Shown: positions 2,985 through 64,000 of the stretch, in pieces
Layout of the letters: each line of letters begins with the position of its first letter
Numbering within the stretch: the stretch's first letter is position 1
Source: Phlegmacium glaucopus
Lineage: Eukaryota > Basidiomycota > Agaricomycetes > Agaricales > Cortinariaceae
NCBI GenBank assembly: GCA_015039465.1
Contig: MU130698.1
Location: forward strand, 405,927 to 469,926
Direction of reading: 5' to 3'
DNA: 64,000 bases
Notes under the pieces: generated by a model
Databases searched by the model: none
The model's input: only the letters and a program-made list of their open reading frames with translations
Told to the model about the DNA's origin: nothing
Position numbers and translations under genes: made by a program

Positions 2985-5048
2985 TATTGGCATGATTACC
3001 CTAACCTGACAATGCGCCAGATTTTATTAAGTACAGTGTGTATGCTAATTGGTGTTTCATTCAATATATTAAATTTTGACTGTTCGTACTTGGTAGGGTA
3101 GTATTGCTTTATGAAGCGTTATTTTCACTGATGGAGCTATATTTTATTTACAGCTTGTCAACTCACATACAGAGCATAATATGATAAAAAAAGGGTTAAT
3201 GAAAAGATGAGAGTCTGATTAATATCTGAATTAGCTGAAATGAAAAGTGTAGATCGTTACCAGCTTTAAAGGAGGCACTTTGTTGGCCACTAGTTCAAGT
3301 TCTACATAACCTGGCCAGTGTTATGATTAATTACTATTTCTCAAGGAAGTTTGCAAACTCCAGGCCGTAAAGCATTCCCGAATCCTGGCTGTCAACCAAC
3401 TCACACCTGTACTGGAGATGCGGTTGGCATTGTGCCGCTACTCTCCGATTATCAATGTCACTTGAATGTGAGTTCATTGGCATCCGTCCCTTAGACTATT
3501 CCGAGTCTACTCTACAGCTTTTATATATGTTCAAATGTTGAGCTTATGACCCTTGAACTAGATAACATCTAAACCATCAAGCCACAAATCACGCATATGT
3601 CTTTTTGTAAAACGCAAACTATACCCTACTATACCGCACACGTTTTGAGGCCTTGACAACGGAATGCATCAAGGGCCCATTCCTGGGACTGCATTTGATG
3701 CCCGCTTTTTTGATACGAAAGTCGAAATCGACCTGCTCCAGAGAGGGATATTTTTCGGAAGCTGAAATCTGGTTTACTAATGTGGACCGGCCAGCTTCGG
3801 GCAAAAAGATGTCCTTCGAACACTGACCCCCGTAACCCGAGTGAAACTGCCAGGAAATTGAAATTTCCATGGCCTTGATACCAGTAGGAGCAGAAGGAAG
3901 ATTGAAAAAATGGTGCAGATAAGTGGGCAGAGAGACCGCAGACGTAACAAGTACGAAGTGAACTTTCAGGGATCGCAAGGCAGGTAATCGCGCTAAATTG
4001 ATCAATTCCTCATTATCCGCCACCGGGAAAGCTGGCGAGATTTATCTTGAGGATGCACTGCAGCTTGGGACATATTTTAAATGGATACTTACTGTCAAGG
4101 ATATAGCAGATATCAAGATGTGTCAGGGTTTGAGCCCACTTCTTCACCATTGTCGCCCTTGTCCCACAGACTTTGAAACCCACTCTCAGAAGCCGGAGTC
4201 TTTTGAGTCGCGAAAGACATTCTGAGAGCGGTGGTATATCACTCTTGAGAAGTGCACGTGTACTGTTGTCGTCGATCTCTAAATAATCCAAATAAAGCAA
4301 GTCATCATCCTGGGGAGATGACATGGAATCGTGGGCTGGAATTTAGAAGTCAATAAAAGGGAAGTAGGTTGAGCCTAATATATGATCAATTACAGAGATT
4401 TTTCATCCGCTGGAGATGAAGGACTTGTAAATTAGGGCACGTGGTGATAATCGTAATCGGGAAATGTTTGATAGTCCGAAGTTTCAAAGCTGTAAGAAAT
4501 GGGGATCTGCACAAATTTTGAATGGCAGAGATGAAATCTTGTGCGATTTCTGGATATTTGATTCGGCTATCTGCGATCGATGGTCCAAAGCTGAAATTTT
4601 GGATCCTGGGGAGTTGGCTGAGAACTTTGTAAAAGATAGCTCCATCATCTAGATTCCCAAATTGCTCCCATTCGTAATAGTAATCAAAGGTTCACACTGT
4701 TGAGGAGAAGAAGTTGTTGTTATTATTAAGGATGTGGAGTAAACCTCTGAGTCGTTTGCTGTGTATTTTATGACGTTGAGCTTGATGCCTCGTTTTATGG
4801 TATGTCAATACAATAGTTGAAAACATGAACAGAGTTGCAAGGAAGGAAAATAGATGAGATACAAGGCAGTAGGCAGACAGAGCTTTGAGTGGGGAAATCT
4901 TTGTGTCTGCTGTTGGGCTGGGGGTGTAGATTTCATTGGTAGTTAGAACTGCGTAATACTCAAATCATATTTCATTGATTATGAGATTGTGAATTTCGTT
5001 TGGAAAGCTGATTTTTCGGTCTTGCATGGAGGTTGTTGTGACAGTACC
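2985..5048 (-). repeat. Inverted segmental duplication, copy A (partner 42434-44520)
   Basis: About 2 kb that matches 42434-44520 in opposite orientation. It covers the whole F-box-like gene plus some 580 bp beyond its 3' end. Matching landmarks are the ATG context 'ACCTCCATGCAAGACC', all three exons, and the downstream 'GACAATGCGC' next to a TTAGGGTA word. Copy A carries inactivating changes and copy B is open, so B looks like the source or the preserved copy. Confidence 0.85.
3571..5027 (-). pseudogene. Decayed copy of the F-box/LRR-like gene at 42467-43950
   Basis: Reads on the minus strand from an ATG at 5027. The exons match those of the intact paralog, including the peptides MSSPQDDDLLYLD (near 4324) and ARLPALRSLKVHF (near 3990). 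Codon 21 is a TGA at 4967-4965, where the paralog has GGA. Exon 3 lacks a short stretch present in the paralog just before VVKASKRVRYS and ends differently. No function is expected. The family assignment follows the paralog. Confidence 0.8.
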
Positions 5049-11292: not shown

Positions 11293-11519
11293 TTTAAAAC
11301 TAGGGACTAACACAGACCGACAAGATCCGGTTGCTACCCGTGACCATTTTATCCGGATACTATTTATGGGTATCCATACCTAAATATAGCAAACCAGGGA
11401 TATCCAGATAAGCTAGTACTAAATATAGATCAATTTTCAATTTCCGCTGTCACGCGTGATTCTGCAGTCTTATCAATTGCTGTGCGTGGTTTTGGGACTT
11501 TGCTTCCTTTCCCCCCTGC

Positions 11520-12720
11520 TTGTCAGATGTTATGCCTCCCAGGGCTGCTCCCAAGGCTGCTAGGGCTGCTCCTAAGTCTTGTAAGGCTGGAAAATCTGCT
11601 ACTGTAGTGCCTGCAGCTTCTGTAGCCCTTACTGATCATGCTGATCATGTACCACTGAACCCACCTGTTACTCCACCCCCACGGCCACAGGTCTGGGCAC
11701 ATCAGCTCTAGTTTGAGACCCCAGGAGAGCGCTTTCCTTCAGTATCCCCAGGCTCAAGTGATTCAGATGTAGGAATGCTTGTTACTGAGGATGTTTTTGC
11801 TCCTCCAGTCCTTATCTCACCCATCAAGCGACGCCAGAGGCAAGCTGCTCCCACAATCAATCGGCTCACTGATCTGGAGGTCTGGGAGATGAGTGATGAA
11901 GAGATTGTTGGTATGTATATTTGATAAACTTTATTACTAAATATAAATAAATGAATTCTTTAAGATGCAGCACAAATGTCGTGGAGATCTGAAGTATATG
12001 ACCACTACGACATTGGTCTGCGACGTGATTTTACTCCAACACGTGAACCCCTTTCTCTGGCCCTGGTGTTCACCTGCAAAACCCATCCCCATCATCATCC
12101 ATCTGTCCAAACTCGCTCACGGGGAAAAACAGGTGATGGAACAAGCAATCTGCAGAAGGACATTGATATGTGTTTGAGGAAGCAAGGCCATGAACGTGTA
12201 AAACCAGAATCGGGGACTATTCCTTACTCTGAGCCAGCTCACCGTGCGCTTATTGCGCTGTGCAAAAAATGCTCGTCCAATCAACTCTGTCCTTGACGAT
12301 GACTATAAGCTTGAGGTTGAAATGCTACGGCCTGGGACTAAGATTCCACATCCAATGACAGTTCAACGGGATTTGCTTTATATCTATGAGCAGGCTTCAA
12401 TTGCGGTGAAGAATTATTTTTTGGTGTGTTATTTTTATTGTAAAATTAAAAATTTGCTTATACATTGAATACAGCAACTGAATAGTACTATTCACCTTGC
12501 TCTTGATGGATGGACTTCCCCACTCATTTCCTCATACCTTGGTCTTGTGGTTGTCTGGTTTGACCAGGGAGTAATTCACCGAGCAATTCTAGAATTCATT
12601 CGGTGTGTTATGATTTATAAAATATCATGATTTCCTTCATTCCTCACTTCTTTTTATAGCTTAACCCAAAAACATGATGGACGGTATCTGGCCACTGTTA
12701 CAGCTGATTGCTTGAAACAT
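11520..12720 (+). pseudogene. hAT transposase, N-terminal and early core part
   Basis: A basic Ala/Pro/Lys-rich N-terminus (APKAARAAPKSCKAG) leads into a BED-like region (MSWRSEVYDHYDIGLRRDF, near 11976) and the early catalytic region with IHLALDGWTSPLISSYLG (near 12495) and TQKHDGRYLATVTADCLK (near 12665). GT-AG introns separate the exons, for example about 12424-12474 and 12606-12659. The frame is broken by a TAG at 11709-11711 and by a frameshift near 12262. The gene continues only if the next block is read backwards. It is therefore a damaged copy even before the assembly problem. Confidence 0.8.
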
Positions 12721-14368
12721 ACGAACACGGTAAGAACTTTCCGATCCAGCTGACAAAACATCAACTATGGTTATAAAGTATATAGGAGGACGAAGATATT
12801 ACTCCACACTCCCCTGTTATGAAAGACGTTTTATACGGACTTACCTCAGTTCTCCTATAAACGACCTCGGTCTTCTACACCCTCGTCGGGTAAAACTGAA
12901 AAGGATCTTAGATCTCATTCTTATATAAACTTAAATACCGAATCTTTAATATGATGGAACCAACAGAAGAAATACTGACCTTAGACCCTGACACGTCTAC
13001 GTATTCTAAAACTGGTAGCCAAATGATGGTCGAAAAACTAGAGGAAATTGGTAAGACTACTTTGTGTCAGAAAGTCGGTGACTTCGAAGACTAGTCCCAT
13101 GTATTGAACAAATCTCTACAATCGTTAATTTAATCTATTCTTTCTTTTTTATTTAACGTGGTTCACGCTATTGTATCTAAAGTGTTAGGGTACAATTCAG
13201 GTATATGAACAATTAATTGTTTTGAGGTCGTACTCGTCGTTAGGTCTACTGACGTCCACAAAGTGGTCTTCTCCTATACAGTCTCTACAGTAGGAGTCAC
13301 AAGACCTGAACTAGGGTTTGTTGTCGGACATTTGAGAGGACTTCTATCTTATTGTATCCTACCCGTAGGTGTTATTCCCCTTGGAGACGAACTCTCTTTT
13401 CTTTTCAATCTAGAAATTTTTCGATAGGTTTTTTAATCTTCTTTAACTATTATTTATTTTCCTACATTTACGGAAATTCTGGAGTACTTGTAGTAGACGA
13501 TTAACGGTGACAAGAAGACTTTCCGCCATACCGACGTTGAACAACGGTCTTTGTGGACAATATCGGAGTTATTGTAAAAATTTCACGTTTACACGTCGTT
13601 CCGTTAGTTTCAGTCTCAAGGTAGTTCACCCCTGTACCGCTAGTTCTCGTGTAAAACGTCAACATTCGAGTCCTAGGACCAGTTATTCGAGGACCTTAGA
13701 AAGTAAATCACACCTACTCAGTACTTATGTTGCACGTTCAGGTCTTTGGATCTCTTCTAAATCTTGTTGTGACCTTTATAAAATTTTACTGATATGGCTC
13801 CCTTTCTCGAAGTCTCGGTAGGCGGAAAGACGTAGTCTGTAGTGATGTGGAAATCGGAGGTAAAGTATATGACGTTATAGAGCTTCTCTGAACTGTTGAC
13901 GTAGTAGTACCCGATCGACTGGTAGTAGGAGGACTCATAAAAGGAGACTCAACTAATTTTGAACGAGTCAGCGTCGTTTTAATAGTAGTAGTAGTAGTAG
14001 ATCAGGGAGGGGTCCTAGGTTTTGGTGGAGGTGGAGTGACCACACTAATAGACGACCTTAACACTGTCTAAAGAAGTGAAAACCCAAAAACTTTTTCTTT
14101 CTTTACTTCTAGATCTATCTTTATTAATCAGTTGACGAATTATTATTATTTAGAACAATGAAAACGTTGTTCTAATTCATATACCCAGTTTGTAGCGTCA
14201 GCACGTAGGTATGGGACCTTACATCCTTATATCAGTCCATCGTTGAGACGCTCAAACAACGTCAATGATCACAATAGGTACGTATATGGTTCATCGATAT
14301 TTTTATTGTTATATTCATATAAAATCTTCTGTTGTAATAAAAGAAATGGACAACTAGTTCTGGTCTGA
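12721..14368. other. Mirror-written (reversed, not complemented) hAT transposase segment
   Basis: Neither strand of this block codes for anything recognisable. Read from 14368 leftwards without complementing, it gives the rest of the hAT transposase in order: LLGICMDNTSNCNKLAELL, GMDARLRCLTHILNLVAK, KVSGLAR-like VSGLARCIHDSSTLNERF, WNSDFDCLAAHLHFKNVIEA, PYRLSEEQWQL, VIWIAAHAGVLLINKYM, EAGGYMKYWYQLQNSRPSL. In that reading the introns begin GT and end AG, for example after NLVAK. One codon is a TGA just before WNSDFD. The left limit is about 12721, where forward and backward readings each stop making sense. The right limit coincides with the N gap. This is an artefact of assembly or data processing, not biology. 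Confidence 0.95.
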
Positions 14369-14728
14369 NNNNNNNNNNNNNNNNNNNNNNNNNNNNNNNN
14401 NNNNNNNNNNNNNNNNNNNNNNNNNNNNNNNNNNNNNNNNNNNNNNNNNNNNNNNNNNNNNNNNNNNNNNNNNNNNNNNNNNNNNNNNNNNNNNNNNNNN
14501 NNNNNNNNNNNNNNNNNNNNNNNNNNNNNNNNNNNNNNNNNNNNNNNNNNNNNNNNNNNNNNNNNNNNNNNNNNNNNNNNNNNNNNNNNNNNNNNNNNNN
14601 NNNNNNNNNNNNNNNNNNNNNNNNNNNNNNNNNNNNNNNNNNNNNNNNNNNNNNNNNNNNNNNNNNNNNNNNNNNNNNNNNNNNNNNNNNNNNNNNNNNN
14701 NNNNNNNNNNNNNNNNNNNNNNNNNNNN
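14369..14728. other. Assembly gap of 360 N
   Basis: An unresolved run of N. It sits between the mirror-written transposase block and the right subterminal region of the same hAT element. The expected but absent transposase C-terminus (dimerisation region after the MKYWYQL segment) would need roughly 300 bp, so the size fits. Confidence 1.
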
Positions 14729-14910
14729 TCGTGCTGATCCAAACCATATCCGAACCGTATTTGGCAAAATCTGTGGTTCAGTTACGGATTTGGTCCGGAT
14801 CTATCCGTGTTAGTCCCTATTTAAAACATATGAATGGAGTACACATACTTACAGTAAACCAGCCCCATCTAGGATCGTCCATTGGTTCTTGATAGTTTTT
14901 TTAGCAGCGT

Positions 14911-42466: not shown

Positions 42467-44520
42467 ATGCAAGACCGAAAAATCAGCTTTCCAAACGAAA
42501 TTCACAATCTCATAATCAATGAAATAGGATTCGAGTATTACGCAGTTTTAACTACCAATCAACTCTACACGCCCTGCCCAACAGCAGACACGAAGATTTA
42601 CCCACTCAAAGCTCTGTCTGCCTACCGCCTTGTATCTCATCTATTTTCCTTCCTTGCAACTCCGTTCATGTTTTCAACTATCATATTGACATACCATAAA
42701 ACGAGGCATCATGCTCAACGTCGTAAAATACACAGCGAACGACTCAGAGGTTTACTCCACATCCTTAATGATAACGACAACTTCTTCTCCTCGACAGTGC
42801 GAACCCTCGATTACTACTACGAATGGGAGCGATTTGGGAATCTAGATGACGGAGCTATCTTTTACAAGATTCTCAGCCAACTCCCCAGGATCCAAAATTT
42901 CAGCTTTGGACCATCGATCGCAGATAGCCGAATCAAATATCCAGAAATCGCACAAGATTTCACCTCTGCCATTCGAAATTTGTGCAGATCCCCGTTTCTT
43001 ACAATTTTGGGCCTTCGGAATATCAAACATTTCCCGATTACGATTATCACCGCGTGCCCTAATTTACGAGTCCTTCGTCTCCAACGGATGACAGATCTCT
43101 GTAATTGATCATATATCAGGCTCAACCTACTTCCCTTTTATTGACTTCTAAATTCCAGCCCACGATTCCATGTCATCTCCCCAGGATGATGACTTGCTTT
43201 ATTTGGATTCTTTAGAGATTGACGACGAAAGTACGCGTGCACTTCTCAAGAGTGATATACCGCCGCTCTCAGAATGTCTTTCGCGACTCAAAAGACTCCG
43301 GCTTCTGAGAGTGGGTTTCAAAGTCTGTGGGACGAGGGCGACAATGGTGAAGAAGTGGGCTCAAACCCTGACACATCTTGATATCTGCTATATCCTTGAC
43401 CGTAAGTATCCATTTAAAATCCGTCCAAAGCTGCAGCGCATCCTCAAGATAAATCTCGCCAGCTTTCCCGGTGGCGGATAATGAGGAATTGATCGATTTA
43501 GCGCGATTACCTGCCTTGCGATCCTTGAAAGTTCACTTCATACTTGTTACGTCTGAGGTCTCTCTGCCCACTTATCTGCACCATTTTTTCAATCTTCCTT
43601 CTGCTCCTACTGGTATCAAGGCCATGGAAATTTCAATTTTCTGGCAGTTTCCCTCGGGTTACGGGGGTCAGCGTCCGAAGGACATCTTTTTTCCCGAAGC
43701 TGGCTGGTCTAAATTAGACCAGATTTTAGCTTCCGAAAAATATCCCTCTCTGGAGCAGGTCGTTTTCGACTTTCGTATCAGGAAAGCGAACATCAAATCC
43801 AGTCCCATACCGAAGAATGGGCCCTTGATGCATTCCATGATTGACACTCTTTTTCCCGTTGTCAAGGCCTCAAAACGCGTGCGGTATAGTTTGCGTTTTA
43901 CAAAAAGACATACGCGTTATTTGTGGCTTGATGGTTTAGATGTTATCTAGTTCAAGGGTCATAAGCTCAACATTGAACATATATAGAAGCTGCTGAGTAG
44001 ACTCGGAATAGTCTAAGGGACGGACGCCAATGAACTCACATTCAAGTGACATTGATAATCGGAGAGTAGCGGCACAATGCCGACCGCATCTCCAGTACAG
44101 GCGTGAGTTGGTTGACAGCCAGGATTCGGGAACGCCCCACGGCCTGGAGTTTGCAAACTTCCTTGAGAAACAGTAATTAATCATAACACTGGCCAGGTAT
44201 GTAGAACTTGAACTAGTGGCCAACACAGTGCCTCCTTTAAAGCTGGTAACGATCTACACTTTTCATTTCAGCTAATTCAGATATTATAATAATCAGACAA
44301 GAATCAATTCTCATCTTTTCATTAACCCTTTTTTTATCATGGCTCTGTATGTGAGTTGACAAGCTGTAAATAAAAGACAGCTCTATCAGTGAAAATAATG
44401 CTTCATAAAGCAATACTACCCTACCATGTACGAACAGTTTAAATTTAATATATTGAATGAACCACTGATCGGCATACACACTGTACTTAATAAAATCTAG
44501 CGCATTGTCATGTTAGGGTA
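42434..44520 (+). repeat. Inverted segmental duplication, copy B
   Basis: Partner of 2985-5048. It carries the open F-box-like gene and its 3' flank. No gene was found between 43951 and 44510. Confidence 0.85.
42467..43950 (+). CDS. F-box/LRR-like protein
   Basis: Exons 42467-43100, 43159-43401 and 43463-43950 keep phase and give 454 residues. The N-terminus FPNEIHNLIINEIG is F-box-like, followed by YRLVSHLFSFLATPFMFSTI, the familiar start of basidiomycete F-box proteins. Leucine-rich segments follow: LRNIKHFPITIITACPNLRV, CLSRLKRLRLLRVGFKVCG, ARLPALRSLKVHFILVTS. Such proteins usually bind SKP1 and present substrates to an SCF ubiquitin ligase. The F-box is weak, so only the general class is claimed. 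A decayed inverted copy lies at 3571-5027. Confidence 0.7.
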
Positions 44521-61530: not shown

Positions 61531-62572
61531 ACGACAGCGCAGTACAGGACCTCGCCATGACTGTGCGTTTGTTGTGGAGAAGCAAAATGAACGTGGCTTT
61601 CGGGGTATGAGTGTGGTACGCATCAAATTATTTTTCTCATTTAGCTATGAGGGGGAGAAATATCTGTGCGCTCTTGTGGAATGGTTCAAGAAGGTTGGCT
61701 GGTCCCCCAATGAGCAAACAGGTATGTGGGTAGTAAAACCAGAAGAGGATCACCACGGAAAGAGGTTGACAACCGTTGTACATTTAGACACAAAGACTGT
61801 GACAGAAGTTCCATATTTGGGTGGTGGGAATAAGCCAGCTGCCATCAAAATGAAAATGCGCCCGCATTTTCGTAGCCGGACAGACCCTAAAGTTGCTGAG
61901 AGTGCGTTCCATTGACAGCTTGCAAGCGCATCCGCAGCACTGGCCTAAGACGAGGAGACGGATGATGAAGAGGACGAGAGTGGATATTAATATGGCTGCG
62001 CACTGTCCGTTGTTGGAAGTATTTTCGCAGATGAACTAGAGTGAAATGTAATAAGTCTCAACTTCGGATAGAAGTTTTTATATAATTAAGTACCTAGAGT
62101 GAAATGTAGAGGTCTTTGCTGTGATCCACCAGATCTGATCAGATCTGATCAGATTCCGGTCAGAATTTTTACAAGCCCAAATGGCAGTAATAGAGCCAAT
62201 TTTTCTGACCAGATTCTGATCAGATCTGATCAGAAATACCAGATCTGATCAGATCTGATCAGATCTAATCAGATTTAATTCTGACCAATTTCCGAGCAGA
62301 ATCTGACCATTTCCGAGCAGAATCTGGTCAGATTCCGAGCAGAAATAAGTGAGATCAGCAAATGAACCACTTGAGTTTACTAGAAAAATAATATAATTAT
62401 GGTAATATGTCAAGTAGCACTATATTGAGATTAGATGGCAATGACCTTGTTGCCATCAAAATCGTGTATTTTGTTCAGTGCAAGGGGTGTGATCACATGA
62501 TCACATGTGACTTGCACAAGTAATGTTGATTTCATTCTCTGTCTCTCACACCGTCACACGGCCAGTAACGAC

Positions 62573-62605
62573 GACCACAGACGATGCACAGCATCGTCTG
62601 TGGTC
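62573..62605. repeat. Perfect 15-bp hairpin
   Basis: GACCACAGACGATGC, loop ACA, GCATCGTCTGTGGTC. Uninterrupted pairing over 15 bp with a 3-base loop. Confidence 0.95.
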
Positions 62606-62639
62606 ATAAAAAGGTAAGTCGATTATTTTATTGACCCCC

Positions 62640-63300
62640 ATTATATGCTAATACCCACTACACAACAACAGCAACAAATAACGGCAACGAATAACGGCAA
62701 CGAACGACAGTGGCAGCACAACGACGACAGCCATGTAACAACGGTAACCCCCCCTGGTGAGGGGGGGTATTTTTTATTTTATTCTATCTTAATTCATTAC
62801 TAATGACTTACAATAGTCATGTACGACATACGACAACGATAGCGAGCAACAACAACAATGTACAACACCACCACAACAATGTACAACACTACGACGATGA
62901 CGACGTGCAATGGTAACCCCCCCTCACCAGGGGGGGTATTTTTTTACTTCATTTTATGTTAATTGACTACTAACATGTTGTATTAGGCCATGTACGACGT
63001 ACGACATGCACGACGACGACACACGACGCGTACACACGTACAACAACAACACACGACCTGTATCACGACGAACGACCAATGTGACGACGACAAACGACAC
63101 CCACCGGCTTACAACGACGTACAACACGACGGACGACGGCGGTGACGGCTACCCCCCCCCTCTCGAGGGGGTTTTTGTTTGTTTTTATTTTATTTTTAAT
63201 TCTACCTTACTAATTACCACCAGATCCCCACTACTACCATGCCTCAACCTCAACACACCATCACCACCCCCCCTTTCACCAGGGGGGTTTTTTTAATTAG
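62640..63300 (+). repeat. Degenerate tandem array, each unit with a C-run/G-run hairpin and T tail
   Basis: Four units spaced about 120-230 bp carry CCCCCC..TCACCAGGGGGGG-type hairpins followed by GTATTTTTT or GTTTTT (near 62748-62776, 62916-62945, 63150-63176, 63267-63296). Between them lie ACGACAACG-rich stretches. Confidence 0.85.
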
Positions 63301-63329
63301 TTTTCGAATGATGACAAACCACAAGCCAC

Positions 63330-63670
63330 GACAACAACGACAAATGACAACGATGATGACAAACGACGATGACGACAACGGACAACGATGACAACAACGG
63401 ACAACGATGACAACAACGGACAACGACAACGGACAACGACAACGATGACAGACAACGACGATGATGACGGACAACGAACGACGACGGCGATGCCTCCTCG
63501 TCATCGTCCGTTTCGACCACCCACATACACCCGTTTTACGCCCATCACCCCCGTTTTGCACCCATCACCCCTTTTTTACACCCATCACCCCCGTTTTGCA
63601 CCCATCACCCCCCCTTTCTACCACCTGCCCATTCATTTCACACCCACTCTACCCACTCATTTTGACCACT
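63330..63670 (+). repeat. AACGA/ACGATGAC minisatellite and CACCCATCACCCC(C)GTTTT repeats
   Basis: 63330-63490 is built of ACAACGGACAACGATGAC-type units. 63537-63618 has four ~20-bp units CACCCATCACCCCCGTTTTG. Open frames here are repeat artefacts. Confidence 0.85.
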
Positions 63671-63950
63671 TAGTATTTTGATTTCATTTCTCTGATATCA
63701 ACTAATGTATTTTGTTATTCTAATGTACTAGTAACTAATCCCACCTCAAAATGTATAATTAATCCATTTAAATTTAAATTTAAATTAATATGTTAGAAAT
63801 TTTAGAAAAAATATGAGTTAGTAGGAATTGACTTATAAGTATTGCAATTCTGATCAGATCTGATCAGATCTGGTGGGGGACAGAAAAGTACTGGAAATGT
63901 AATACTAGGTACTGTTAGTAAAGAATTTCGTATATAATAATTGTTACTCA

Positions 63951-63977
63951 CAGTCTCAACTTCGGATAGAAGTTGAG
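63951..63977. repeat. 11-bp hairpin, partly repeated at 62054-62074
   Basis: GTCTCAACTTC-GGATA-GAAGTTGAGAC. The left arm and loop (GTCTCAACTTCGGATAGAAGTT) also occur at 62054-62075, on the other side of the 62125-63877 element. Confidence 0.85.
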
Positions 63978-64000
63978 ACTACTAAATAAAAGTATGCTAC

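Follow-up and report, generated by a model that had tools for sequence, protein, structure and literature searches.

The window, that is, the whole stretch of DNA analysed here, comprises 64,000 nucleotides of the Phlegmacium glaucopus genome (C240:405927-469926, in an assembly of 60.5 Mb and 259 contigs). It contains a hAT-like transposon whose two ends read normally and whose middle reads backwards, with the sole N run of the window next to it, and it ends on a second, probably mirrored stretch:

11301-14819: the element as a whole, hAT-like, with an 8-bp duplication and terminal inverted repeats
11293..11300, no strand: left target-site duplication of 8 bp, TTTAAAAC, identical to 14820-14827
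11301..12718, plus strand: left part of the element in normal polarity, starting with the terminal inverted repeat TAGGGACTAACAC; 96% to L009, L010 and L011
12719..14368, no strand: mirrored middle of the element, in place, by reversed alignments, 5-mer score and a reversal null
14369..14728, no strand: gap of 360 N, the only N run in the window; other copies have 447 bp (L010, L011, L016) or 412 bp (L012) here
14729..14819, plus strand: right end of the element in normal polarity, carrying the terminal inverted repeat
14820..14827, no strand: right target-site duplication of 8 bp, TTTAAAAC, identical to 11293-11300
63894..64000, no strand: probable second mirrored stretch of 107 bp, adjoining the next N gap (C240:469927-473576), which lies just outside the window

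The left part of the element is repetitive, with 31 matches in the genome for positions 11299-12720. The terminal inverted repeat TAGGGACTAACAC is present at both ends of the window copy, and the flanking 8-bp duplication is identical at eight of eight positions in the window copy, in L010 and in L011, at six of eight in L012, and at five of eight in L009; perfect duplications are thus found in two of the four other copies that gave an entry (L016 gave none, and L015 was left out of this comparison). These duplications and terminal inverted repeats are what upholds the name hAT proposed in the initial annotation, and on them the element is best called hAT-like; the Pfam matches do not add to this, since they fall short of the cut-off and do not exceed those to unrelated families. 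The hAT C-terminal dimerisation domain (PF05699) reaches 12.7 bits (E 0.11, cut-off 21.4) on a piece on which the unrelated PF05028 reaches 13.8; the joined exon pieces of L010 match only DUF659 in Pfam (16.9 bits, E 0.0054, cut-off 34.7); the short exon peptides give either nothing in Pfam or sub-threshold matches, several of them to unrelated families; and a PDB sequence search returns one match, at chance level. The element further contains putative hAT-like motifs. With the hAT superfamily of DNA transposons it shares the 8-bp duplication, the short terminal inverted repeats and several exon-like stretches, whereas it departs from that superfamily in having Pfam matches below the curated cut-offs. 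The copy in L011 carries an insertion of about 0.73 kb (3252-3977; C71) with about 50 bp duplicated at the insertion edges. Elsewhere in the window, an open frame at 7969-8610 matches Transposase family tnp2 (PF02992, E 2.8e-12), and the single relative of a 213-aa open frame at 42467-43108, at 58% identity, lies on a contig of 906 bp (source 'ena').

The block in the middle of the element is ordinary DNA of its own genome with the letters reversed and the complement not taken. It spans 1650 bp; of the limits given in the initial annotation, the end at 14368 holds, while the start lies at 12719 rather than 12721, with one base ambiguous. Read as printed, it has only short open stretches in all six frames, in agreement with its earlier description as non-coding, and string reversal without complementing does yield the peptides that were quoted for it. 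After string reversal it aligns to an own-genome copy in L016 at 98.5% identity over 1649 bp, to L015 at 97.1% over 1650 bp, to L010 at 96.8% over 1652 bp and to L012 at 92.6% over 1658 bp, and partially to L009, L011, L013 and L014; the check proposed earlier, a comparison of the reversed string with the rest of the genome, thus returns four copies at 92.6-98.5%. As printed, the block has no match beyond the window's own locus when compared by blastn, on both strands, with the first eight loci, and its genome-wide matches on both strands are itself and two other places, on C144 and C220, that are likewise reversed. Normal-polarity homologous DNA is therefore met after string reversal only, and on neither strand as printed. 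A real inversion was considered and dropped, since the searches covered both strands and the printed block matched only itself and the two reversed places. The observation that the block is spelled backwards and non-complemented is confirmed, now on DNA alignments.

As a null for the reversal, 74 string-reversed pieces of 1648 bp from the window were compared with six normal loci: four pieces, all overlapping the block, score 627-2237 bits, two others score 44.6 bits, and 68 give nothing. A polarity score, calculated as strand-symmetric 5-mer asymmetry and cross-validated within the window, puts the block at -33.7; the 587 overlapping windows scored elsewhere in the stretch have a mean of +21, and the lowest of them is at -7. 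This score serves as support only, and its use as sole detector was dropped, because it also flags 62548-63538 (-21), which is a normal-polarity repeat. Such misfiring of the k-mer score on simple sequence is the one point in favour of a chance or low-complexity resemblance, a reading that is refuted by the alignments to copies, at 92.6-98.5% over 1.65 kb, and by the 74-piece null, which found nothing comparable outside the block.

The geometry of the junctions is the same as would be expected of an extended contig end. Seven copies were compared at the join: in all of them normal-order homology extends as far as 12718, one differing at that last base, and past this point the copies continue with the first letters of the string-reversed block (one-base ambiguity). 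A recount in four copies gives 0-3 differences over the first 30 letters. The block is thus, within that one base, a base-for-base continuation of the adjacent contig, which bears out the statement in the initial annotation that it continues the forward N-terminal part of the element: normal-order homology stops at 12718 and resumes there in the reversed block. To the left the block joins directly, and to the right it adjoins the 360-N gap, as had also been noted. Beyond its far end (12719-12721 read backwards), five copies go on into sequence that the window lacks; the distance from this end to the right flank, taken up in the window by the 360 N, is 412 bp in L012 and 447 bp in L010, L011 and L016. 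The mirrored stretch therefore occupies the place of the correct one, and it is its far end that adjoins the normal contig; the same arrangement is found at C220, L037 and L040. In L037 and L040 the mirroring in place is read from match coordinates and the join lies inside a repeat; the mirrored stretch of L037 extends to the penultimate base of its contig, which is 55,954 bases long. This geometry points to bases added outward from a contig end in the opposite order. At the level of sequence, the block in the window is real DNA of its own genome, in the right place and with the letter order reversed, and not junk.

At the right end of the window, positions 63894-64000 match C25:131298-131404 at 106 of 107 bases after string reversal and do not match that locus in the printed order. 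The k-mer score is -2.9 for the 107 bp in the window and +2.9 for C25, with 0.8% of 107-bp windows scoring as low; by this score the window, and not C25, is probably the reversed partner. Among the forward matches listed (40 of 404 candidate places scored), none but the window itself extends past 63913. The sequence to the left of it, 62450-63874, is a repeat rich in ACG-type simple sequence, in normal polarity among the same 40 of 404 candidate places scored; reversed-polarity copies of it lie at C222:115250-115681 and C60:187673-188162. The repeat at 62548-63538 has at least six other near-full-length forward matches at 92-97%, and these, together with a motif found 22 times in normal and twice in reversed order, place it in normal polarity.

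Of the two other places matched by the printed block, the one at C220:93741-93931 (191 bp) is mirrored in place between the right flank and a 25-base homopolymer. The other, C144:199213-200821, matches at 93%; here 5.1 kb (C144:196850-201984; L022 1851-6985) correspond at 99.2% to C161:1-5118 with the letters complemented and their order kept, and it is the polarity of C161, not of C144, that agrees with the other copies and with the k-mer score. The case on C144 is a polarity error of the same type, viewed from the opposite strand. Positions C144:196453-196477 are a run of 25 A, to the left of which a k-mer walk gives mixed polarity.

Searches with repeats extend the count. A 36-mer repeat motif occurs 589 times in normal and 44 times in reversed order (44 of 633 matches, about 7%, for a chance expectation of about 5e-9), the second repeat motif mentioned above is reversed in 2 of 24 matches, and a hAT motif is found six times in normal order and once reversed (1 of 7), the reversed one fitting the block in the window and adding no new case; these fractions concern repeats, which probably lie nearer to gaps than other DNA does, and are counts of matches whose places are not itemised. 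A reversed-polarity repeat used as query gives at least 57 matches, with 40 of 102 candidates scored; the normal-polarity repeat gives 865 candidates, of which 40 were scored. All 12 loci cut from the reversed-repeat matches, one of which is the query itself, carry the repeat in reversed polarity. Two further stretches, L016 6355-6840 (next to an N gap) and L018 4405-4672 (next to a run of 37 A), each have a match elsewhere in their own locus once reversed, and none as printed. Judged by these comparisons, reversed stretches recur at many places in the assembly.

The homopolymers that accompany them have a marked polarity of their own. In the scaffolds, A runs exactly 25 letters long, with other letters on both sides, number 157 on the plus strand and 1 on the minus strand (binomial p ~9e-46), whereas those exactly 24 letters long number 0 and 1, respectively. 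Natural poly(A) should show no such preference for length or strand, and we infer that the 25-A runs are filler. Several of them adjoin reversed stretches. Nine entries for A runs, at eight places, lie at most 10 bp from a reversed match, a number that is partly built in, as the query held a 25-A run and only its candidates were scored. Of 11 distinct A runs with lengths of 25-27, six are flanked on one or both sides by clearly reversed sequence (L009 by homology), two have a weak reversed signal (L035, L056), and three have none (L038, L043, L055). The 25-A run at C148:155624-155650 directly precedes a normal-polarity repeat copy, which indicates that not every fill is reversed.

The coincidence of reversed stretches with assembly boundaries bears on where the reversal took place. 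A single copy of the assembly was examined, and the reversal could have arisen in that copy after public deposit; we consider this very improbable, because an error introduced into the file later would have no cause to follow N gaps or 25-A runs, and it is there that many of the reversed stretches are found. Still further from likelihood, to the point of being negligible, is a true mirror-image DNA in the cell, made by some unknown copying process: its letters do exist and the printed block does recur at two other places, but the limits of the blocks follow assembly gaps and homopolymer fillers. We know of no recombination or polymerase that reverses the order of letters without complementing them.

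The best explanation, and a very probable one, is an assembly artefact that arose from gap-filling extension. The scaffold would formerly have had a gap of about 2 kb (1650 + 360, by inferred size) within a hAT-like transposon of 3.6 kb; a step of gap filling would have added 1650 bp, correct in sequence, to the left contig, written these bases in reverse order, and left 360 N. The same step would have acted at many contig ends, and where the added sequence exhausted the estimated gap with the pieces still unjoined, it would have placed a filler of 25 bases, printed as 25 A. The agent would be the flank extension of gap filling, presumably with long reads. The assembly or gap-filling error suggested in the initial annotation is supported in this respect, except that it is not local and recurs through the assembly.

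Against this explanation stand the 25-27-A runs with a weak reversed signal or none, the 25-A run on C148 that precedes a normal-polarity copy, and the reversed stretch on C144, which at 5 kb or more is long for a simple contig-end extension. Blocks of several kilobases would also fit an error of scaffolding, if small contigs in minus orientation had been only reversed or only complemented, each block then being one mis-oriented contig; the same mirror in place would be expected, and 25-base spacers between placed pieces would suit this as well. We nevertheless regard such mis-orientation as unlikely, because the block joins the left contig with neither gap nor overlap exactly where the copies continue, which is rare for separately placed contigs, because some stretches measure no more than 107 and 191 bp, and because the mirrored stretch of L037 is a terminal extension of its contig. 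Gap-filling extension accordingly remains the preferred reading.

Mirrored stretches escape alignment on both strands and hence appear unique, non-coding or lineage-specific; they skew gene models as well as repeat counts and estimates of how much sequence is orphan. A cheap test for them consists of string-reversed queries and a strand comparison of exact homopolymer runs. It is conceivable, if rather doubtful, that a gap-filling procedure shared by many assemblies writes some contig-end extensions backwards and leaves strand-specific 25-A fillers; if this were true for many assemblies, other deposited genomes would carry mirrored DNA that is hidden from similarity searches. No published account of reversed, uncomplemented assembly sequence was found, as judged mainly by titles and the openings of abstracts, and the part of PMC6733440 that was available holds nothing on reversal without complement.

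Among known systems, the anatomy of these stretches comes closest to the products of PBJelly. In the available part of its description, a gap is any run of at least 25 N, it shrinks when its flanks are extended, and it is overfilled when the extensions exceed the estimate and have no identifiable overlap (PMC3504050); hybrid fungal assemblies have been patched with PBJelly, according to the part available of a survey by JGI and others (PMC7550596). Alike in both are the extension of contig ends into gaps, the reduction of a gap that is not closed, and the threshold of 25 bases; unlike PBJelly, as far as that part of its description goes, the present case has reversal without complement, and its fillers are A, not N (PMC3504050). 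The likeness fits the anatomy and assigns the error to no program or pipeline. With an ordinary assembly inversion, the mirrored stretches have in common that a segment lies in the right place in the wrong orientation; an inversion, however, yields the reverse complement, whereas these stretches show uncomplemented letters in reversed order.
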